From: Loktanella sp. D2R18
GTDB lineage: Bacteria; Pseudomonadota; Alphaproteobacteria; Rhodobacterales; Rhodobacteraceae
Direction of reading: 5' to 3'
NCBI RefSeq assembly: GCF_003318235.1
Contig: NZ_QOCG01000030.1
Coordinates: 1-64,000 of the forward strand
DNA length: 64,000 nucleotides
The translations under genes and the position numbers were made by a program. This document shows positions 1,705 to 55,982 of this stretch, piece after piece. The notes below the pieces were generated by a model, which saw nothing but the letters and a program-made list of their open reading frames with translations, was not told where the DNA came from and searched no databases. Within the stretch, counting starts at the first letter, position 1, and each line of letters starts with the position of its first letter.

Positions 1705-2963
1705 ACGAACAGCGTGATGACCGTGGGAAAAAGGATCAGCAGGATCAGGACGATCAGATAGGCCCCGATGTAGGGCAGAGCACTTTTGGAGATGTCTTCC
1801 ATGCGCGACCCCGATAAGCGGGCTGCAATAAACAGGTTCAGCCCGACGGGTGGGGTAAAGTTGCCCACGGCCAGCGCGATGACGGTGAAAACGCCGAAAT
1901 AGATCGGGTCGATACCGACTGCGGTGATTAAGGTGCCCAGTGTAGGAACCAGCAACACAAGGGCTGCGACGTTGTCCAGAAACGTGCCCGCGATCAATAG
2001 CAGCACAAGAATCATCGCCATGATCAGCGTCGGATTTGAGCTGATATCAAGGATGGACGCTGCGACGGCCTGTGGCAGTTGTTCGGCGGTGATGATATAG
2101 GAAAACGCGTTCGCTGTGCCCATCAGATACATAACAATCGCGGAGCTGATGGCGGTGTTGATAAAGATCGGCCCGAGGGATTTGATCGTGATGGAGCGGT
2201 AGACGAACATGCCAACGATAAGCCCATAGAGGCAGGCGACAGCGGCGGATTCAGTTGGCGTAAAGATGCCGCCATAGATGCCACCAAGGATGATTGCGGG
2301 CATGATGAGGGCGAGGCTGCTTTCGGCGATGACCTTGCTTGCCTTTACATCGGGGTTCACAGGTTCACCCGCCAGCCCTTGGCGTTTTGCGAGTAGATAA
2401 TTCACCACGCCCAAGGCCAGCGCAATGACAATGCCCGGCAGGATTCCTGCGATAAACAAATCGCCAATCGAAACATCTGCGATCGTGCCATAAATTACCA
2501 TGGTCAAGCTGGGCGGAATGATGAGGCCGAGCGCGCCTGATGACGCAACCACAGCACCCGCAAATGCAGGTGCGTAACCGCGATTGACCATGGACGGGAT
2601 CAGGATTGACCCGATAGCGGAGGTCGTCGCAGGCGCAGAGCCGGAGATGGCACCAAAGAACGCAGACGCGCCCGTCGACATTTGCGCAAGCCCGCCGGGA
2701 TAGCGGCCAAGGGCGAGACCTGCCAGTTTGACCAGCCGTTCGGAAATTTGCGCGGCGGCCATGATGTTGCCTGCCAGCAAGAACAGGGGGATGGCAAGGA
2801 AGGGGAATGAATTCAGTCCGTTAAACAGCTTTTGCGGCACGATGATCAATGGGATCGGGCTGGCGAAATACAAGGCCGCTACGGACGCGATGCCAAGTGA
2901 GAATGCGACAGGTACGCCGAGAAGCAGCAGACCGAACAGGGCGATAAAGAGAATCTCAGTCAT
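1701..2963 (-). CDS. dctM: TRAP transporter large permease (DctM family)
   Basis: This 420-residue, highly hydrophobic inner-membrane protein has about a dozen predicted membrane segments and is the large transport subunit of a tripartite ATP-independent periplasmic transporter. The glycine- and proline-rich stretch with IPPSLTMVIYG and the repeat-like later stretch with NFTPPVGLNLF are typical of the family. Its start overlaps the end of the small permease gene by 8 nt, and its stop overlaps the amidase start. The order dctP-dctQ-dctM-amidase indicates one operon. The solute is unknown, though the linked amidase suggests an amide. Confidence 0.95.
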   Translation of the reverse strand: MTEILFIALFGLLLLGVPVAFSLGIASVAALYFASPIPLIIVPQKLFNGLNSFPFLAIPLFLLAGNIMAAAQISERLVKLAGLALGRYPGGLAQMSTGASAFFGAISGSAPATTSAIGSILIPSMVNRGYAPAFAGAVVASSGALGLIIPPSLTMVIYGTIADVSIGDLFIAGILPGIVIALALGVVNYLLAKRQGLAGEPVNPDVKASKVIAESSLALIMPAIILGGIYGGIFTPTESAAVACLYGLIVGMFVYRSITIKSLGPIFINTAISSAIVMYLMGTANAFSYIITAEQLPQAVAASILDISSNPTLIMAMILVLLLIAGTFLDNVAALVLLVPTLGTLITAVGIDPIYFGVFTVIALAVGNFTPPVGLNLFIAARLSGSRMEDISKSALPYIGAYLIVLILLILFPTVITLFV

Positions 2964-3429
2964 GGCGTTTGGCCTTTAAGAACTGGCACATTTGCTGTTC
3001 TGCGAGAAAGACCAACGCGAGGATTGAGCCGACAGGAATGGCCATCGTGATGTAGCCGACCGGTATTTTGGCGGCAGGCGAAGACTGGCGCATGGCGCGT
3101 ATGGCAAGGTCGTAGCCCTCAGTTGCGATGAGGCACAAAAAGCCCGCGAGGAGGACAAAAATCATGATATCTGCCAGCCGTCCAACGGACACTGGTAACT
3201 TGTTTTTCAGGATATCCATCGCGATGTGGCTGTTGGAGCGGAATGCCACGGCAGCCCCTAAAAACACCGACCAGATCATTGCGTAGATCGACAGTTCACT
3301 GGCCGCCGCGAGAGAAAAATTGAATATGAAACGGCTGGCCACCTGAGCAGTGACCAAGGCGAACACCGAGAACAAACACAATCCGGCGACGATACGGACG
3401 ACAGTTTCCAACAGATCAAACAGTTTCAT
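2956..3429 (-). CDS. dctQ: TRAP transporter small permease (DctQ family)
   Basis: This 157-residue protein has four predicted membrane helices, as expected for the small membrane subunit of a TRAP transporter. I chose the ATG at 3429 (MKLFDLLETV) because a GGAGG ribosome-binding site lies just upstream; a longer frame begins at 3459 without one. It sits between dctP and dctM and overlaps dctM by 8 nt. The conserved tryptophan-containing segment in helix two (IYAMIWSVFLGAAVAF) fits the family. Confidence 0.92.
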   Translation of the reverse strand: MKLFDLLETVVRIVAGLCLFSVFALVTAQVASRFIFNFSLAAASELSIYAMIWSVFLGAAVAFRSNSHIAMDILKNKLPVSVGRLADIMIFVLLAGFLCLIATEGYDLAIRAMRQSSPAAKIPVGYITMAIPVGSILALVFLAEQQMCQFLKAKRHD

Positions 3430-3479
3430 GGGTAGCCTCCGTTCGGCCCGCAGACACATCGCCTGCGGGCCGGTTTGGG

Positions 3480-4457
3480 TTAGTCGGCAAGTTGTGTTTG
3501 AATTTCTTCAATTATGCCAGCGTCGAGCGTTTGCTTAAACATCTCAATCACAGGTGCCGTTGCTTCGCGGAATGGTGCTGCGTCAACGTCGTTGATCTGG
3601 TTGCCAAGTTCAGCCAGTTCAGCCCATTGCGCGTCTTCCAGATCGTTCACCATCTGCAAATGCACGCCGGCCATTTCAGTGGCAGCCGTCAGAATGATTT
3701 CACGATGCTCTTCAGACAGGGACTCCAACAGGGCTTCGTTCATGATCAGCGGTGAGCCGAGGTAGATGTGGGCTGTGCGCGATGTGTATGCCTGAACTTC
3801 ATAGAACTTCTGCGTCAGGATGTGGGCTGGCGGGTTTTCCTGTGCGTCGGCGGTGCCGAGCTGCAGCGCGGAATACAATTCACCAAAGGAAATCACGACA
3901 GGGTTTGCACCCATGGCTTTGAAGGTTTCAACGAAAACCTCGCCTTCTGGAACACGGATCTTCACGCCTTCAAGCTGGGATGGGCCGGTGATGGGTTGCA
4001 CGTTGTTGGTGATGTTGCGCAAGCCGCCCATCCACCAACCGATGACAACAGCGCCTGTGCCGTCCATCTTTGCCTCAAGCTGATCACCGACGGGGCCCTC
4101 AAGCACTTCGTGTACGTCATCCAGCGACGAGAACAGGAATGGCAGGTTCAGAATACCCATGTCCGGCACCCAGTTGGACAGCACGGTGTCCGACACAAGG
4201 AAGATGTCTTGCGTGCCCAACATGGTGCCTTCGACGGCTTCAAGCTGTTTGCCCAACTGGTCAGCCGGGTAGACGTCGATTTGGATTTCACCATCTGAGC
4301 GCTCACTGACCGTTTCGGCGAACAGTTCGGAAATGGTTTGGTAGTGGTGGGTCGGCGCGCCAGTGTGGCCAAGACGCAAGGTGACGTCTTGGGCGTTCGC
4401 GGCGCTGGCGAGCAGAGTCGACGCGGCGAGGATGGAAGCGGTTGAAAATAGTTTCAT
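3480..4457 (-). CDS. dctP: TRAP transporter periplasmic solute-binding protein (DctP family)
   Basis: This 325-residue secreted protein captures substrate in the periplasm and delivers it to the DctQM permease. A Sec signal peptide spans about residues 1-22, with cleavage after ASAANA. The mature part carries DctP features: RLGHTGAPTHH near the N terminus, the substrate-arginine region GVKIRVPEG, and the AQENP segment. The ATG at 4457 was chosen because it starts the signal peptide and follows AAAGGA; a longer frame from 4490 would spoil the signal. It is the first gene of the operon and diverges from the LysR gene. Confidence 0.95.
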   Translation of the reverse strand: MKLFSTASILAASTLLASAANAQDVTLRLGHTGAPTHHYQTISELFAETVSERSDGEIQIDVYPADQLGKQLEAVEGTMLGTQDIFLVSDTVLSNWVPDMGILNLPFLFSSLDDVHEVLEGPVGDQLEAKMDGTGAVVIGWWMGGLRNITNNVQPITGPSQLEGVKIRVPEGEVFVETFKAMGANPVVISFGELYSALQLGTADAQENPPAHILTQKFYEVQAYTSRTAHIYLGSPLIMNEALLESLSEEHREIILTAATEMAGVHLQMVNDLEDAQWAELAELGNQINDVDAAPFREATAPVIEMFKQTLDAGIIEEIQTQLAD

Positions 4458-4653
4458 AAGGGTTTCCTTTGTTGGACAGGATGAAAACAAGCAGTGTTTT
4501 TCTTTTTATAAGGCAGGCACATTCGGGTCAGTCGCCCCGAATGCGCCAAACAAACAAGAGCATGACGGTTGCAGGTCAAGCGCCCCCTGGATCGTTTTAC
4601 CAACTATGGCATTGCAAATTTTGAAGAAGGTAGCATTAACTTGCGACGCAGGT

Positions 4654-4670
4654 GTTGCCAAATCGGCAAC
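4654..4670. promoter_or_regulatory. Candidate LysR operator (T-N11-A inverted repeat)
   Basis: GTTGCC-aaatc-GGCAAC is a perfect 6-bp inverted repeat with 5-bp spacer. It contains the T-N11-A core (T4656 to A4668) typical of LysR-type regulators. It lies in the 264-bp divergent region between dctP and the LysR gene, about 50 bp before the latter. Binding is inferred. Confidence 0.6.
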
Positions 4671-4721
4671 GGATGTCATCGAAATTTGGGTGATATTTGT
4701 GCGAAAAAACAGGGCGACGCT

Positions 4722-5681
4722 ATGAATTTAAACGGTTTGAAATATTTCTTGGAAGTCGCGAAGTGCAAATCAATCCGGCGTGCATCTGAACGCCAACATG
4801 TAGCGGCGTCTGCCATCAGCCGTCAGATTTCCGCGTTAGAACATGAACTAGATTGCGTGCTTCTGGATCGCAGATCTGACGGGGTGAGGCTGACCGAAGC
4901 GGGTGAGCGGTTGTGGGCGCATGGGTTAAAGATCGAGGCGCAGTTGCAGTTGGTGCAGTCGGATATCGACGATCTACGCGCCCTGCACCGCGGCGCGATC
5001 CGCATTACGACCGTTGAGGGGATTACGGAAAATTTCTTGCCGGACATTTTGACGGAATTTAATGACCTGTACCCTGATGTGACATTTGAAATTACGGTGG
5101 CCAGCCGCGATGAAACGGTGGACGCCCTTGATCGCTACGAGGCGGATATCGGGTTCGTGTACGATTTCTCGAACCACCATGCGATAGAAACAACGGCCCA
5201 TTGTCACCAACCGCTGATGGCGTTTGTGCCGCCGGATCACCCACTCAGCGATGGGCGTGAGATTGAACTGGCGGAACTTTTGACCTACGCCCACGTTTTG
5301 CCGGACGACAGTTTCGGCATTTCCCAGCTGATCAAACGCGTGGCGAAAAAGGAAAAGGTTGCGGTGTTACCTTGCGTACGCAGCAACCTATTAAATTTTT
5401 TACGCAATTACGCGCTGCGCAATCAGGCCATTATGTTTGTGCCGCTTCAGGGGGTGTATAGTGAGGTGAGCAACGGCACCATCGTGCCGGTCAATCTAAA
5501 CTGTGCGGCGCTGGCCCATCGCCGCCTGTCTATTGCGCGGCGTCGGCAGCGGGCCTTGTCCCCGGCAACGGAGCTATTTGCCACGTTTGCCGAGGGTCGT
5601 TTTTCGCATTGGGAGGCCTTGGATGCGCAGGCGCTTTTGGCGGCCCAGCAAAAATGGTGGACCCAGCCGCCGTCATTCTGA
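4722..5681 (+). CDS. LysR-family transcriptional regulator
   Basis: This 319-residue DNA-binding regulator has an N-terminal winged helix-turn-helix (about residues 1-60, with LKYFLEVAKCKSIRRAS and AISRQISALE), followed by an effector-binding domain with the usual periplasmic-binding-protein-like fold. I chose the ATG at 4722, which opens the canonical domain, over an in-frame start at 4569. It is divergent from the TRAP-amidase operon, so it probably controls that operon and itself through the inverted repeat at 4654-4670. Its 3' end overlaps the convergent RidA gene by 9 nt. Confidence 0.93.
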   Translation: MNLNGLKYFLEVAKCKSIRRASERQHVAASAISRQISALEHELDCVLLDRRSDGVRLTEAGERLWAHGLKIEAQLQLVQSDIDDLRALHRGAIRITTVEGITENFLPDILTEFNDLYPDVTFEITVASRDETVDALDRYEADIGFVYDFSNHHAIETTAHCHQPLMAFVPPDHPLSDGREIELAELLTYAHVLPDDSFGISQLIKRVAKKEKVAVLPCVRSNLLNFLRNYALRNQAIMFVPLQGVYSEVSNGTIVPVNLNCAALAHRRLSIARRRQRALSPATELFATFAEGRFSHWEALDAQALLAAQQKWWTQPPSF

Positions 5682-6170
5682 TTTGAGTAGAACCGTCATT
5701 TCGGCCTCGACCGGTGCATCCAAGCCAAGCTCGTTCTGGAACAAGGCCGCGCGCGCATGCTTTCCACGTTCTGGCCCAAGCAGTTCGACATAAAGGTCGG
5801 ATGCGCCATTCATCACCAGATGTGCTTCGGTAAAGCCGGGCGCAGAATTAACGTAGCCGACCATTTTGACAATACGTTCTATACGGTCCAAATCGCCGAT
5901 GACCATCTTCATCAGGGCCAAATGGTTTAACGCCATCAACTTAGCGGATTCATAACCTTCGGCAATGCTCAGCTCTCCGCCGAGCTTGCCTTTGATGGGC
6001 ATGATGTCTTTGTCGTTTTCATCACGGATCGTGCCCAAGGTGCCAGAGACATACAGCATGTTTCCAACCTTAACCGCAGGCAGGTAGTTCCCGATGGGGC
6101 GCGGGGGTGGCGGCAATTGCAGTCCAAGCGCTTCCAGTTTCTGTTCGATAACGCCCTTGGTCTCTGTCAT
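5673..6170 (-). CDS. RidA family protein (reactive imine/enamine deaminase)
   Basis: This 165-residue member of the YjgF/YER057c/UK114 family is slightly longer than the 128-residue archetype and resembles the longer RidA-like subgroup. It starts with a helical extension and a proline-rich PPPPRPIGNYLP segment, followed by the core LYVSGTLG. Archetypal RidA hydrolyses reactive enamines/imines; subgroup members often act in nitrogen-compound catabolism. The ATG at 6170 is supported by AGAGGA six bases upstream. Its position beside a LysR/TRAP/amidase locus fits nitrogen catabolism, but it is convergent with the LysR gene and so is not in that operon. Confidence 0.88.
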   Translation of the reverse strand: MTETKGVIEQKLEALGLQLPPPPRPIGNYLPAVKVGNMLYVSGTLGTIRDENDKDIMPIKGKLGGELSIAEGYESAKLMALNHLALMKMVIGDLDRIERIVKMVGYVNSAPGFTEAHLVMNGASDLYVELLGPERGKHARAALFQNELGLDAPVEAEMTVLLKSE

Positions 6171-6751
6171 GATCATTCCTCTTTCTGGGTATGAACCTAT
6201 CATTAGTTTTCGGGCGTCGGCGCGGGAAGAACGCATCAGGTAGGGGAGCTTTGCCGAAACGGCAACAGCGTGGTTACGGGTTCAAAATAGTGAACAAAGA
6301 CCAGGTCGCGAAGGCCGAGACCAAGGATGCTCAGTCTTAAGCAAGACAAATTGCGGTCTCAGACGGTGTCCGTTTTTATACAGCCCGACCGAACGCAGTG
6401 CTGTTGAAGAGAATGGCGCCTTTCCCAACCCATCCTACTTTTTTGCCGCATCAGAAGCCTGTAGAAAGCGGCCATTGGTTGAGAACGCTCCAAGGCCCGA
6501 AAAGTCCCGCATGGCGGAATTTGACTCAGCAACAACCAAGGTCGGCTTTGGGCAAGAAACGCGTGACGTTTCGTCCCGTATTCGAAAACCCCCGCCCGAT
6601 ATTTTATTGCGCATTCCCTAGCGTCATCTTCGCTTACCTTTCGTCAGCTTCAAAATGACGCCACGTTCCGTTTACGTTAACGTCACCTTTGCTTGTAAGG
6701 TAGGCCTCATATCCGCAGGTGCATGGCAGACCATGTAACTAAGGAACGAGT
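6171..6751. other. Non-coding region upstream of the MerR gene
   Basis: I see no convincing gene in these 580 bp. Contents noted: a GTTCA-N6-TGAAC inverted repeat at 6280-6295; a 7-bp inverted repeat GCGTCAT/ATGACGC at 6621-6627 and 6655-6661; and the probable MerR operator at 6671-6685. The stretch from about 6400 to 6600 looks like degraded intergenic repeat sequence. Confidence 0.5.
6671..6685. promoter_or_regulatory. Candidate MerR (LiuR-like) operator
   Basis: TTTACGTTAACGTCA contains the perfect 10-bp palindrome ACGTTAACGT (6674-6683) and lies 67 bp upstream of the MerR start. It resembles, from memory, the sites reported for LiuR-type MerR regulators of branched-chain amino acid and fatty-acid degradation. 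Autoregulation and control of the downstream beta-oxidation genes are inferred. Confidence 0.6.
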
Positions 6752-28847: not shown

Positions 28848-29567
28848 TTATTGCGCCAAAAACCTCTCTATATCTCTTATCATATTTTGCCGCACAAAAT
28901 CGGCTGGGAACTCAACAACTCCGTCGGCTTCAATCATCTCCAAAAGTGGTTCGAGACTTGGTTCAAAGAACCCCGGTGCAGTCGAAATCGTAGACATTGT
29001 GATGTCTTGTATTTCCTGCCTAGTTACTATGAACGCTTCGCCGGGTGGCCTACTGGTAAACGCACTATACCGTGTGAAATCATCGAGCTCCAAATAGCTT
29101 CCCCAATCATCAAGAACCTCTCGGTATCCGTAGCGACCCGAATACTTCGGTTCAAATATACCTTCGTCTTTTGCGATCGACAGCATGCGTTCACCAGTTG
29201 GTGTCTGAAAAAAGTCGACTATCTCGGACAGACCGTCAGCGCCAAATTGTTCAACGGTAATATTTTCCACGAAGGTTCGATGTTCGTCAAATATGTCTTG
29301 CGCTGTTCGTTTAGGAATCAGGGCGTAGAAACGACGTTCGTCCACAACGCGCGCATTGTCTGTATCAAGTGCTTCACGATAAAAACGTTCAGTATTTAAC
29401 CGGTGGTCAGTCTGGATACGAATCCAAAGCCCATCACCCATTAAATGCGATATGAAAAACCTGGCATCTTCGCTGGTATCAGCAAACGAAGCCTTTCCAG
29501 CCAAACACATTAAAATGATGAGTGAAGTTTTCAGAAAAGATGATCTACGGGGCAACGAAATCTCCAT
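28848..29567 (-). CDS. Exported DUF2059-like protein
   Basis: This 239-residue protein has an N-terminal hydrophobic segment with signal-peptide character (about residues 10-29, ending CLAGKASFA before DTS). It is rich in acidic and aromatic residues. The segment LSEIVDFFQTPTGERMLSIA resembles the helical DUF2059 motif (aromatic, TPxG, then hydrophobic), seen in small periplasmic proteins of unknown function. Codon use is more AT-rich than that of rpsA or cmk. With the PilJ-domain gene it lies in the space between cmk and rpsA. Family assignment is tentative. Confidence 0.7.
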   Translation of the reverse strand: MEISLPRRSSFLKTSLIILMCLAGKASFADTSEDARFFISHLMGDGLWIRIQTDHRLNTERFYREALDTDNARVVDERRFYALIPKRTAQDIFDEHRTFVENITVEQFGADGLSEIVDFFQTPTGERMLSIAKDEGIFEPKYSGRYGYREVLDDWGSYLELDDFTRYSAFTSRPPGEAFIVTRQEIQDITMSTISTAPGFFEPSLEPLLEMIEADGVVEFPADFVRQNMIRDIERFLAQ

Positions 29568-29941
29568 ATGCTATTGAATACAAAAGCGCATACTTACAAT
29601 TGAGTGAAGTCTTTTAATGATTTCTCACATATATAAATTTACTGATCATATCCATGAGGCACATTTGCAGAATGCGGCATCAAAGCCGCCATTGGCGCTG
29701 CCACAACGAAATCTAAAGATGTCCACACAGCCGGCAATCTCAAATCCTAACAGTTCTTAGCGCATGCCCCATTAACCAACCTCTCCCACCTCAAAACCAC
29801 ACAACTTGCCATACACTGTGCATACGCAAATCCGACGTTTTGCCGACCGTATATTTCTTATGTTTTCAAAGCATAAACGCGCATTAACCCGCCCGCGTGT
29901 TGCGCGGGCAGGCTGGGACACCGTTCGGTGCCTGCCCGCAT
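29568..29941. other. Intergenic region with nested inverted repeats
   Basis: No supported gene in 374 bp. GCGGGCAGGC (29904-29913) and GCCTGCCCGC (29930-29939) are perfect 10-bp arms ending 2 bp from the stop of the PilJ-domain gene. The left arm also overlaps a second hairpin CCCGCG/CGCGGG (29892-29908). Together they probably terminate or protect the minus-strand transcript, though no long T-run follows. The rest is AT-rich. Confidence 0.55.
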
Positions 29942-30868
29942 TTACATATTATCAAGCGGAACCAATGTTGCGGCGGCGTCGACGTACATGCCGACGACCG
30001 TGTTCATATTGGCCATCGTGACGTTCAACTGTTGGAATTTCACCGTGTTGCCATCGGCATCAAGAGAATTGCCCGCAAGCACCTCTGTCACATAGGGCTT
30101 TGCGCCGCTCCAGTCAGTCAGCACACCATCAAGACCTGTTGCGATCATGTCGTTTGGTGGTGGCTGCACGCCCACAACTGGCATGCCGTTTTGCAATGCA
30201 TCCAACGAGTTTTCAAAAATACGCATCGTCGTTTGAAGATCTTCGACAGTCACTGTCGTATCGAAATCACCCTCTAGAATGCAGGATTCTTTGGACATTT
30301 TCTGCGTCAACATGCGCTGCCGCCCTGAAATGTCGACCAAAACCAAAGCTGCAAATGTTGTCGCATTTGGGTTGGAATATTGCTGTACAAGCCGTTCAAC
30401 CAACAACTGGGCCGCGCGCAAAACGGGCAAGTTTTCATTCAGCACATAATTGCGCTCGGCCTCGGTCGCAGTGTCGTTTGCAACTGCTTCGGCGGCAGCC
30501 CTCAGCGGCTCCCACAATGTGCGCAGCTCCGCAATGAGCGCAAGCGTCTGTCCATTCGTTTCAGGCAGTTGAATGCTCAGATCAGCGTCCCCAAATTCGA
30601 GCCCGGTCAGAATTTTTTCAAACTCCGTCGTTGCAGCCACCAGCAAAGCCGCCGAACCCTCTACATCAATACCGCGCGAAAAGTGGCATGCCGCCGATGG
30701 AACACGCTGTGACAACATCCGCAATTTCCCAGAAAAATTAATTCGTTGCTCCGCATTTTCTTCGATGATCGGCGCGCTCTGGCCGAGCGCGATGCTGGGC
30801 ACGATAGTTGCCGGGTATGCAGCTCCAAGTAGAAACACGAGTTTCAGGTGCTTAGGTATCATAATCAT
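29942..30868 (-). CDS. Periplasmic protein with two PilJ/NarX-type sensor modules
   Basis: This protein of about 308 residues has a signal peptide (cleavage near SIALGQ-SAP) and then two copies of a four-helix-bundle sensor module. Each opens with the same signature: INFSGKLRMLSQRV at about residues 43-56 and VDISGRQRMLTQKM at about 178-191. This is the PilJ N-terminal domain pattern, related to the NarX nitrate-sensor domain, whose corresponding arginine contacts nitrate. There is no membrane helix after the signal and no kinase or methyl-accepting domain, so it is a free periplasmic binding protein at most. Two starts (30868, 30862) are possible. An FNR-type box lies upstream. Ligand binding is inference. 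Confidence 0.75.
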   Translation of the reverse strand: MIMIPKHLKLVFLLGAAYPATIVPSIALGQSAPIIEENAEQRINFSGKLRMLSQRVPSAACHFSRGIDVEGSAALLVAATTEFEKILTGLEFGDADLSIQLPETNGQTLALIAELRTLWEPLRAAAEAVANDTATEAERNYVLNENLPVLRAAQLLVERLVQQYSNPNATTFAALVLVDISGRQRMLTQKMSKESCILEGDFDTTVTVEDLQTTMRIFENSLDALQNGMPVVGVQPPPNDMIATGLDGVLTDWSGAKPYVTEVLAGNSLDADGNTVKFQQLNVTMANMNTVVGMYVDAAATLVPLDNM

Positions 30869-31219
30869 CTTTCTGTCTTTATTCTTAGGGAATGACTGCG
30901 CCGTCGGTGCGCCAAATGACATTCGGTTCGTTCGGCTTTACGTGGGCGTCTCAAGCGTTGGAGAGAAACCCTAAAAATGCTTATAATTATGATTATGTTT
31001 GATTTATGTCAAATTCGGTGAACCGCAGAAAACTGCAAGTTTGGCTGCTTTTTACGCGGAAAAAATCCCGACTGATCACTTATTGTGCAATGCAAGAACT
31101 CCACGACTCACCCAGCATAAATCACAATCGAAGGGTGTGTTCATACTTTATGAATGTGCAACACATGCGCAGTTCCACGAAACCTATTTACGAACCCCGT
31201 ACCATCCGCACGATGCAAA
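30869..31219. other. Promoter region of the PilJ-domain gene and downstream of cmk
   Basis: No gene is supported; an 87-codon plus-strand frame at 31006 has no ribosome-binding site or family resemblance. The region is AT-rich around 30970-31015 and contains the FNR-type box and promoter-like elements for the leftward gene. Confidence 0.55.
30986..31012 (-). promoter_or_regulatory. FNR/CRP-family box and promoter elements for the PilJ-domain gene
   Basis: TTGATTTATGTCAA at 30999-31012 matches the FNR-family pattern TTGAY-N4-RTCAA on both half-sites. On the minus strand the same bases give TTGACA, a perfect -35, followed after 15 bp by CATAAT (30991-30986). Regulation by FnrL or a Dnr/NnrR-type nitric-oxide regulator is plausible but inferred. 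Confidence 0.55.
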
Positions 31220-33995: not shown

Positions 33996-34649
33996 TCAGT
34001 CGCGCAAGACACCTGACTCTTCAAGTTGGCGGCGTGTCGGATACCACATGTTTGACCGCTCGCGCTTTGTTTCGATCGCAAACACAGGATCAACACCGCG
34101 TGCGACCAAATAGGAAAGCTGGTTATGCATCTCGGTCTGTACATCCCGGTACAGCCATTGCCCAAAATCAAATGGATTGTCCCAGTTTTCTTCGCGATGC
34201 CAATATTTGTAATATTCGCGCAGCCCATCCGCGTTCCACGCGTTTTGATGAAATCCGATCGCACTTCCGCGGTCCATTTCGCGGCGTTCGCCAGCCAAAA
34301 ACAGCGTCACACAAGCACTGCTACATTCACCCGAGACGCGCGTATCCAAACGATAATCCATCGCGATCCGCGCCATTTGTTCGCCCGCCCAAACAGAGCC
34401 GCCCGTACTGGTCAGCCGCAGCAGCTTTGTGTTTGGGTTCTCAGCCAAGATGTCAGAGAACGCATCGACGTCAGTGCTGTCCATTTCCGCATACTGGTCT
34501 GGCGGCACGTTGTTTGTATTGTAAACAAGCGTCGTGCCATCGACAAAGAACTTACCAATCCGCGCATCATCACTCACCGGTAGTTTTTGGGCCATAACGG
34601 GGCCAGAAGCCCCTAGACACACAACAACAAAAACGCGAAACAATTTCAT
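33996..34649 (-). CDS. Periplasmic ClpP/crotonase-like protein (COG3904 type)
   Basis: This 217-residue protein has a signal peptide (residues 1-20, cleavage after GPVMA). The mature domain looks like the ClpP/SppA fold: LRLTSTGGSVWAGEQMARIA (oxyanion-strand glycines) followed by GECSSACVTLFLAG with the serine and cysteines at the nucleophile turn, and GFHQN. This matches the COG3904 class of predicted periplasmic proteins; proteolytic activity is unproven. The ATG at 34649 starts the signal peptide. It lies just upstream of trmB on the same strand. Confidence 0.75.
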   Translation of the reverse strand: MKLFRVFVVVCLGASGPVMAQKLPVSDDARIGKFFVDGTTLVYNTNNVPPDQYAEMDSTDVDAFSDILAENPNTKLLRLTSTGGSVWAGEQMARIAMDYRLDTRVSGECSSACVTLFLAGERREMDRGSAIGFHQNAWNADGLREYYKYWHREENWDNPFDFGQWLYRDVQTEMHNQLSYLVARGVDPVFAIETKRERSNMWYPTRRQLEESGVLRD

Positions 34650-34995
34650 AACACTCTCCCAAGACTTGCTTGATTTGAACTGCATTCGCGCGGAACCCTC
34701 AACCCCTTAGGCTGAAAAAAACACATTGATCGGAGCAGAAACGTGACCTTATCCATGCGCAACTGACGCGACCTGTTGAAAGAGCCTAGCATCTCGAAAT
34801 TGCAGCGATTGCCAGAGGTATGTAGATTTGGTTCGCATCCATTGATAAGAGACGTGTCCCACATAGGTGACCCAACTCGTGGATGCGAAGGTGCCTACAC
34901 TTGTGGCCATTCACCGCACCATTCGAATGGCAGCATTTATGGTCTTGCCCGTCGAGGGTATTGTGCACGGCAGCAGTTACGTTGATGCTGAGAAG
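34650..34995. other. Divergent intergenic region with a 10-bp inverted repeat
   Basis: About 345 bp separate the COG3904-type gene from the MFS gene. No gene is supported. TTCGCATCCA (34832-34841) and TGGATGCGAA (34880-34889) are perfect inverted copies 38 bp apart. This could be an operator pair, a large hairpin or a scar of a lost element. Confidence 0.5.
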
Positions 34996-55023: not shown

Positions 55024-55982
55024 ATATCGACATGATCCGCGCGGCGGCCAAACGCATCGACGGCCATGCGCGGCGCACACCGATCTTATCATCACCATTC
55101 TTAGACGAAATCGCGGGACGACGCGTTTTTGTGAAAGCGGAGTGCCTGCAGCACACCGGATCGTTCAAATTTCGCGGCGCGTGGTCGGCAGTCTCCATGC
55201 TGTCGCCCGACCAGATCAAGGCGGGAGTGATCGCATTTTCAAGCGGCAACCACGCACAAGGCATCGCATTGGCCGCGCAAAAACATGGCGCGCCAGCGGT
55301 CATCATTATGCCATCAAACGCACCCGCAATCAAAATCGCCAATACGCGCGCTTTGGGCGCAGAGGTCGTGCTATATGACCGTTCAACCGAAGATCGCGAT
55401 GAAATTGGCGACCGGCTTGCGGCTGAGCGCAGCTTGACCTTGATCAAACCCTTTGACGAGCCACATGTCATTGCAGGCCAAGGCACCTGCGGGCTTGAGA
55501 TCGCGCAAGAGCTTGGAAATTTATCGGCGGAAGTTGCTGTGTGCTGCGGTGGCGGGGGACTAACATCAGGAGTCGCGATGGCCTTGGCCACAGACGCGCC
55601 AAACATGCGGGTGCGTCCAGTGGAACCCGCGGGTTTTGATGACGCCTCCCGGTCGCTTATCAGTGGTAAGATTGAACGAAACGCGCAAATGGATGGGTCG
55701 CTTTGTGATGCGATTATCACGCCACAGCCAGGCAATTTGACCTTTCCGATTATGCAAGAACATTGCGGCCCCGGTATTGCAGTGACCGACGACGAATGTT
55801 TGCGCGCGATGGCCGTTGCGTTTGCCCGGCTAAAAATCGTCATCGAACCCGGCGGTGTGGCCGCTTTGGCCGCCGCGCTTTATCACCCTGACGCCTTTAA
55901 CGGTGATGCCGTTGTCGCCATTGCGACCGGTGGAAACGTTGATCCGGCTGTATTTGCACGTGCCCTGGAGACCCTGTCATGA
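55020..55982 (+). CDS. PLP-dependent threonine/serine dehydratase-like enzyme
   Basis: This 320-residue fold-type II PLP enzyme has the lysine in TGSFKFRGA (near residue 45), the substrate loop SSGNHAQG and the phosphate-binding CCGGGGLTSG. The short length without an ACT domain indicates the catabolic threonine dehydratase, serine racemase or hydroxyaspartate/hydroxyectoine-dehydratase (EutB-like) group; these cannot be separated by eye. It is coupled by ATGA overlaps on both sides. Confidence 0.88.
   Translation: MNIDMIRAAAKRIDGHARRTPILSSPFLDEIAGRRVFVKAECLQHTGSFKFRGAWSAVSMLSPDQIKAGVIAFSSGNHAQGIALAAQKHGAPAVIIMPSNAPAIKIANTRALGAEVVLYDRSTEDRDEIGDRLAAERSLTLIKPFDEPHVIAGQGTCGLEIAQELGNLSAEVAVCCGGGGLTSGVAMALATDAPNMRVRPVEPAGFDDASRSLISGKIERNAQMDGSLCDAIITPQPGNLTFPIMQEHCGPGIAVTDDECLRAMAVAFARLKIVIEPGGVAALAAALYHPDAFNGDAVVAIATGGNVDPAVFARALETLS

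Follow-up and report, generated by a model that had tools for sequence, protein, structure and literature searches.

A secreted tandem-PilJ protein from Loktanella as a candidate one-chain periplasmic nitrate receptor

What can a nitrate-sensor domain do when it is secreted in duplicate, within one chain and with no output domain attached? The question is raised by a gene at positions 29942-30862 (minus strand) of the window, by which we mean the whole 64,000-nt stretch of Loktanella sp. D2R18 DNA that was analyzed. The open reading frame list and its translation give a secreted double-PilJ protein of 306 aa; we took the ATG at 30862 as its start, and other in-frame ATGs lie at 30868 and 30922. 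Residues 1-27 (MIPKHLKLVFLLGAAYPATIVPSIALG; 30782-30862, minus strand) were read as a signal peptide without a lipobox, with the cleavage site placed by eye, and residues 8-26 form the sole hydrophobic segment, in agreement with the initial annotation of a free periplasmic protein. An apparent hairpin with 10-bp G+C-rich arms and no T run directly follows the stop codon (29904-29939, minus strand) and is a possible transcript end; the terminator scan listed no site for it.

The same annotation had proposed two tandem modules, each opening with the signature SG-(K/R)-x-RMLxQ, and this signature is indeed present in both (SGKLRMLSQ, residues 44-52, and SGRQRMLTQ, residues 179-187). The PF13675 (PilJ) HMM search that it had suggested as a check returned 95.9 bits against a cut-off of 26.6, in two stretches. 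Module 1 covers residues 37-162 (30377-30754, minus strand), as delimited by the best PF13675 stretch (35-138) and the model helices, and module 2 covers residues 167-299 (29966-30364, minus strand), as delimited by the profile, the model helices and a structural match; the two share 29 identical residues in 129 aligned. Up to E 1, hmmscan against Pfam-A named no family besides PilJ, an NCBIfam search returned no family for the protein, and Pfam and hydrophobicity revealed no kinase, MCP output domain or membrane segment beyond the signal peptide, as expected for a protein said to have no output domain. PilJ nitrate sensors have been described in sensor kinases, chemoreceptors, diguanylate cyclases and transcriptional regulators (PMC6381276).

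We kept the best 80 of 437 relatives for comparison. The 68-row alignment built from them (A1) leaves out 12 proteins of 554-620 aa, which have more than two modules, as well as L066, whose frame is open at the contig end, and it includes only the matched part of L024 and L025. Members of about 560 aa from Campylobacterota (L052, L053, L061, L064, L067, L080, L089, and L090) probably contain four PilJ modules, and rhodanese-like genes adjoin them as judged by eye, with the Rhodanese assignment confirmed for L052 only.

An AlphaFold2 model of the window protein, computed with 67 relatives, reached a pLDDT of 88 and a pTM of 0.83, with pLDDT values below 50 at residues 1-18 and 24-29. The predicted model consists of two four-helix bundles and not of a different fold, as the initial annotation had anticipated. 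Its best structural match was the transcription antiterminator NasR (4akk_B; Z 20.8, rmsd 3.8, 259 residues aligned, model residues 25-305), which covers both modules. The chemoreceptor McpN (6gcv_C) superposed on module 2 (Z 17.8, rmsd 1.8, 123 aligned), and the two-domain PilJ chemoreceptor 7zjr superposed on only one module of the predicted model (128 residues, Z 17.7). In Foldseek, the TM score was 0.52 against NasR (rmsd 5.5, E 6.5e-3) and, over the full length, 0.29 against the PilJ chemoreceptor (rmsd 25). Unrelated bundles in the same match list (designed proteins, vinculin, talin, and catenin) scored Z values between about 10 and 13. A second model, of the relative L086, was computed from 37 sequences (A2, the A1 rows without the cysteine pair described below); it also matched 4akk_B (Z 17.2, rmsd 3.5, 239 aligned, residues 1-257), in a tie with McpN on one module (Z 17.9). 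The sequence sets of the two models are disjoint except for the shared family. Since both models match NasR over both modules, we predict that module 1 pairs with module 2.

NIT-type domains are characterized by a single chain that holds a pair of four-helix bundles, and we find this trait in predicted models only. The NIT family profile (PF08376) did not match the window protein up to E 1 in the Pfam-A hmmscan, and 4AKK was absent, up to E 1, from a PDB search with the profile of the window protein's own family; this second profile found McpN at E 1.8e-18. Rows from a single-protein phmmer search of the PDB were weak (designed proteins first, at E 7e-4, and McpN at E 0.15), so that the profile search was needed. 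We predict from the models that the window protein works like a NIT domain, though it is not filed as one. The modules could instead be two independent sensors, each forming its site by dimerizing with another copy of the protein, and it is true that each of them matches a single-domain family on its own and that McpN superposes on module 2. We nevertheless consider this very unlikely, given that two single-chain models match NasR over both modules and that each module has one cysteine at an equivalent place. The earlier description of the modules as two sensors thus gives way to two halves of one binding site as the more likely reading.

The putative ligand site lies on helix 1 of each module. 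Here the N-box of module 1 (residues 41-52, INFSGKLRMLSQ; 30707-30742, minus strand) contains G45 and R48, and that of module 2 (residues 176-187, VDISGRQRMLTQ; 30302-30337, minus strand) contains G180 and R183, so the G-x-x-R sequence with the McpN-type arginine, on which the initial annotation had made its proposal depend, is present in both. This G-x-x-R was kept in 62 of the 68 aligned sequences for module 1 and in all 68 for module 2, where G, Q, R, M, L, and Q are invariant (68/68). The strict N-box, [IVL]-[ND]-x-A-G-x-Q-R-M-L-[ST]-Q as defined in PMC6381276, is found in neither window module: INFSGKLRMLSQ differs from it twice (Ser for Ala, Leu for Gln) and VDISGRQRMLTQ once (Ser for Ala). 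Across the alignment, 26/68 sequences carry the strict form in module 1 and 35/68 in module 2. Leu is described as usual at the Gln position in nitrate kinases (PMC8199190).

McpN binds one nitrate on its dimer axis, with key hydrogen bonds from R61 and further contacts from G58, A59, and M62 (PMC6381276), and nitrate recognition is lost in an R61A variant (PMC7247690). The bundles of the NasR NIT domain are reported to resemble the NarQ/NarX dimer, with R50 and R176 forming a putative pocket (PMC7247690). The two-domain PilJ chemoreceptor, as PMC6381276 describes it, does not bind nitrate and does not conserve the N-box. Because nitrate occupies the dimer axis of McpN, the window protein resembles such a dimer made as one chain. 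With G-x-x-R conserved but the strict N-box absent, nitrate is our best guess for its ligand.

A second pair of residues may link the same helices. Cys59 (codon 30686-30688, minus strand) lies 11 residues after the module 1 arginine and Cys194 (codon 30281-30283, minus strand) 11 residues after the module 2 arginine, so there is one cysteine per module, at matching places 135 residues apart. Both cysteines are present in 31 of the 68 aligned sequences and neither in 37; not one sequence has a single cysteine (0/68). The spacing of 135 is shared by the window protein and all five of its paralogues in the same genome. This both-or-neither pattern, together with the constant spacing, is consistent with a disulfide that links helix 1 of one module to helix 1 of the other, and a Cys59-Cys194 bond perhaps staples these helices together. 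The 31 rows with the pair are the window protein and L011-L040, all of which except L025 are labelled Rhodobacteraceae or one of its genera; because the pair is confined to these rows, it may have arisen in a single evolutionary event.

Six double-PilJ genes (12 PilJ matches), none with a further Pfam-named domain, occur in the window genome, and not all of them have retained the putative anion site. The PilJ match of L093 runs across a stop codon; this paralogue (G000 C6:49430-50113) has lost the module 2 arginine, has an internal stop codon, and keeps both cysteines. L094 has lost the module 1 arginine. That both keep the cysteine pair, as do the six relatives that lack G and R in module 1 (L032, L033, L036, and L038-L040), is what might be expected if a nitrate-receptor fold had been reused, with another ligand or none, for a structural or redox (Cys-Cys) role in the envelope. 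The location of some paralogues after a PBP_like_2-OmpA gene points the same way; such a gene precedes the double-PilJ gene in L092 and L094 of the window genome and also in L019, L022, L025, and L027, with another motif-bearing gene in between in L027. We think reuse of this kind unlikely for the window protein itself, in which both G-x-x-R motifs are intact and which belongs to a family whose G, Q, R, M, L, and Q of module 2 never vary.

Several further observations concern these paralogous regions. Upstream of L015, the PBP_like_2-OmpA gene is seen by eye only as a 110-aa fragment. The N-terminal stretch of the one PBP_like_2-OmpA example analyzed (..SADGTVNLVGEFVDF..) matched no Pfam family over the cut-off. 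The L094 paralogue (2604-6291, C11) stands in a row with the PBP_like_2-OmpA gene and a gene with hydrophobic segments, whose winged-helix-like C-terminus scored 20.9 bits for Trans_reg_C, below the cut-off of 26.2, and which may be a membrane regulator; a convergent gene with a hemerythrin domain lies in the same region. L092 (7658-9079) carries a C-terminal extension of about 170 aa that has no Pfam family and appears Cache/PDC-like by eye.

A receptor without an output domain would need another protein through which to report, and the initial annotation had suggested a separate signalling partner. For the window gene itself, no partner gene was found on either side. Its upstream neighbor is cmk, as in L011 and L013, and the gene downstream changes from one relative to the next, which left no candidate for an operon partner. 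In the window, the downstream gene (28848-29567) encodes a probably secreted 239-aa protein with a DUF2059 score of 16.6 bits, below the cut-off, and its place is taken by a different gene in the relatives that we looked at. Farther away, 33996-34685 encodes a probably secreted protein without a Pfam family, which contains the stretch ..GECSSACVTLF.. and is reminiscent by eye of ClpP-like periplasmic proteins.

In other phyla, a candidate partner is encoded next door. Of the 77 loci in which a downstream gene was called, nine have a chemoreceptor as the next gene (L046, L054, L057, L063, L074, L084, L086, L087, and L088), seven of them found by the hairpin motif and two (L057 and L087) by Pfam. 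These nine loci come from MAGs of Nitrospirae, Nitrospinaceae and the FCB group, from one gammaproteobacterial MAG, and from Ca. Thiodiazotropha, Vibrio and Desulfosediminicola. The next gene was not a chemoreceptor in the other 68, which include all Rhodobacteraceae loci. All nine receptors have MCPsignal over the cut-off, no PilJ match and no N-box, and their periplasmic part matched no Pfam family over the cut-off. The periplasmic parts of seven of the nine matched one another in all 21 pairs at E ~3e-8 or better (12-sequence database); those of L087 and L088 match these seven more weakly.

A profile of the seven periplasmic domains (A3) was searched in 13 source genomes, and it matched once in each of the seven profile genomes and in none of the other six, including those of L087 and L088, at E 1e-5. 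Only two of 369 genomes from the class of G041 had a match, G041 included, so the partner domain is rare outside certain groups; in the order of G403, 17 of 210 genomes had one, each in a single copy. In the reciprocal direction, we obtained 15 loci outside the profile (L139-L153), all from one order and hence not independent events. A frame with two N-boxes lay directly upstream, on the same strand and 18 to 38 bp away, in 14 of these 15, and the five upstream frames that were scanned (L139, L140, L150, L151, and L153) were all double PilJ over the cut-off. The fifteenth locus, L149 (extended as L154), has a 116-aa frame with a partial PilJ match at 26.7 bits vs. a cut-off of 26.6.

Other associations with signalling genes also occur. 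In L070, an Hpt-domain gene follows the double-PilJ gene at the contig end (5692-7048); in L075, a chemoreceptor of a different, HAMP-rich type lies 195 bp upstream; and in L023, a chemoreceptor is the third gene downstream. A convergent response-regulator gene follows the double-PilJ gene in L056 (6001-7258).

We also considered the chemoreceptors of the window genome, two of them intact and one present as two frames, as partners and rejected them, because their N-terminal parts do not match the partner domain (BLAST, E 1e-3); these N-termini match each other or nothing. The split receptor (L117, G000 C11:41550-42004) reads as two overlapping frames, possibly the result of a frameshift. The idea of a separate signalling partner is supported by computation for relatives in other phyla, where one is encoded beside the receptor gene.

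The initial annotation had further reported an FNR/Dnr-type box upstream of the gene. The motif scan located it at 30999-31012 as TTGATTTATGTCAA (read towards the gene, TTGACATAAATCAA), and it recurs in two orthologues: an identical box lies 150 bp before the start of the window gene, L011 and L012, and a box with one mismatch lies at 144 bp in L013. Taken alone, the box is weak evidence, as TTGAT-N4-ATCAA with one mismatch occurs six times in the window vs. 2.7 expected, and four of 100 shuffles reach six. Three results, namely a genome-wide excess, the position in orthologues and an enrichment in the family, indicate that it is more than chance. The genome contains 30 sites for TTGAYNNNNRTCAA vs. 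three for the reversed control pattern. Boxes within 250 bp upstream were present for 5/72 family genes vs. 0/555 other genes at the same loci (Fisher p 1.8e-5, or 1.5e-4 when L011 and L012 are counted once). The five boxed genes (L011, L012, L049, L078, and L080, the last being one of the long proteins) come from Rhodobacteraceae, a Gammaproteobacteria MAG and Campylobacterota MAGs. These counts cover 72 of the 80 target genes, because no gene was called at L013, L018, L031, L032, L048, and L058, and the upstream DNA available for L043 and L066 was too short. Across 849,552 bp, 6 of 10 box sites fall in the 24,066 bp upstream of family genes, a count that includes the L048 box, which is not among the 5/72. 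Another TTGAYNNNNRTCAA site in the window, at 55434-55447, lies inside a mechanical ORF and may be due to chance.

Fifteen of the 30 genome sites were fetched, and three of them adjoin ccoN, ccoG, and hemA, names that were assigned over NCBIfam cut-offs and that are classical FnrL targets. Among the remaining 12, at least six fall within long frames, and some TTGAYNNNNRTCAA sites may therefore have no function. The window genome has an FnrL-type gene (L119), which carries what we take to be the cysteine cluster expected of FnrL. Control by NO through a Dnr-type regulator was not our first choice. The only two COX1-family proteins of the genome are CcoN, over its cut-off, and a CtaD-like oxidase whose 668.0 bits fall slightly short of the CtaD cut-off (670.75), with NorB not among them; a NirK search of the genome gave no match; and none of its five molybdopterin enzymes reached the NapA cut-offs (NuoG; L111, a formate dehydrogenase over its cut-off; and L112, L113, and L114, all below curated cut-offs). 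Since no NapA-grade reductase, NirK or NorB was found, FnrL appears likelier than NO/Dnr to control the double-PilJ gene. Of the oxygen or NO regulation originally suggested, it is thus the oxygen part that gains support, from the box and the FnrL-type gene.

A candidate -10 hexamer, TATAAG, lies at 30980-30985 (minus strand); its spacing to the box is unchanged in L011 and L012, and L013 has TAATAA in its place. In the window gene, the center of the box is 23 bp from the center of this best conserved -10-like hexamer, and the box-to--10 distance in a classical class II activated promoter is longer than 23 bp. A box so near to the -10 element leans towards repression by FnrL or towards the use of another start site.

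We were also led to ask whether the protein might bind nitrate, or another small anion, without any signalling, and serve in the periplasm to buffer or deliver nitrate for uptake at low oxygen. The window genome appears to assimilate nitrate: it has a nitrate assimilation region with NirB over the cut-off and, by eye, NasST, an ABC transporter and a reductase (L112, called an assimilatory nitrate reductase solely because it shares a row with NirB). PilJ matches occurred in 19 of 25 genomes of the genus (18 over the cut-off; frames of 273 to 525 codons) and in none of 16 genomes that represent other families within the class. NirB was over the cut-off in 14 of the 19 PilJ-positive genomes vs. 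none of the six PilJ-negative ones (Fisher p 0.0026), such that every NirB-positive genome of the genus has PilJ matches; this correlation is confounded, because the six negatives are the smaller genomes, of 2.7-3.1 Mb. A buffering or delivery role would suit this distribution, as well as the lack of an adjoining partner gene, but the PilJ genes lie outside the fetched nas region and relatives in other phyla adjoin chemoreceptors or, in one case, precede an Hpt domain. We therefore regard such a role as improbable, to about the same degree as reuse of the fold.

The reading of the window protein that we prefer, and consider slightly more likely than not, is that of a single-chain nitrate receptor that is free in the periplasm and reports by docking. 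We infer a mechanism in which the two PilJ bundles would pack like the halves of a NarX or McpN dimer or like the NasR NIT domain, with G45/R48 and G180/R183 contributing to a single anion site on a pseudo-twofold axis that would run between helix 1 of module 1 and helix 1 of module 2. A Cys59-Cys194 disulfide would staple these same two helices. Binding of nitrate, as the presumed ligand, would change the packing of the two modules, and the receptor would report by docking onto another envelope or membrane protein, the putative partner in this organism. FnrL would tune the amount of receptor with oxygen.

More tentatively, and with somewhat less than even confidence, we suggest that the family represents a widespread split system, composed of a secreted NIT-like receptor and a dedicated chemoreceptor, and that in Rhodobacteraceae a stapled, multi-copy, FnrL-controlled branch of this receptor would report through a different partner. 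If so, nitrate taxis that is carried out elsewhere by the one-piece McpN would here be divided between a free receptor and a transducer. Nitrate sensing in bacteria could then be indirect, in the manner of sensing through binding proteins, and the co-encoded transducer, which has no known sensor domain, would be a chemoreceptor domain with a predicted partner. A small soluble protein would also allow nitrate binding to be measured without membranes or dimerization. For the window organism, the proposal suggests that nitrate is sensed in the periplasm of a bacterium that seemingly assimilates nitrate and, within the NapA, NirK and NorB searches, seemingly does not respire it.

Several known systems can be compared with the window protein. 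NasR of Klebsiella oxytoca (4AKK) is cytoplasmic, whereas the window protein is secreted, and no sequence match between its NIT domain and the window protein was found. The NIT domain likewise has two four-helix bundles in one chain, with one arginine per half (PMC7247690); NasR also has an ANTAR RNA-binding domain (PMC7496416), unlike the window protein with its lack of an output domain. The McpN domain (Pseudomonas aeruginosa PA2788, 6GCV) shares the PilJ fold and G-x-x-R, but McpN is a chemoreceptor with one PilJ domain that pairs between chains (PMC6381276). In NarX and NarQ, a PilJ sensor holds nitrate between the H1 helices of two protomers (PMC8199190); these are membrane kinases, and the window protein has neither a kinase nor an extra membrane segment. 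The PilJ chemoreceptor (7ZJR, 8WDF) likewise has two tandem PilJ domains, of which one module superposes. Among the best matches listed, open-access full texts described no free-standing tandem PilJ protein. We are likely dealing with a known domain in a new arrangement, free and self-paired and perhaps disulfide-stapled in one branch; in another branch, the dedicated chemoreceptor beside the receptor gene is also part of this new arrangement. The TorS and LytS chains appeared among the structural matches as helical-bundle matches only, and the TorT and XylFII receptors have a binding-protein fold. In TorT-TorS and XylFII-LytS, a soluble receptor feeds a membrane transducer, as we propose here.
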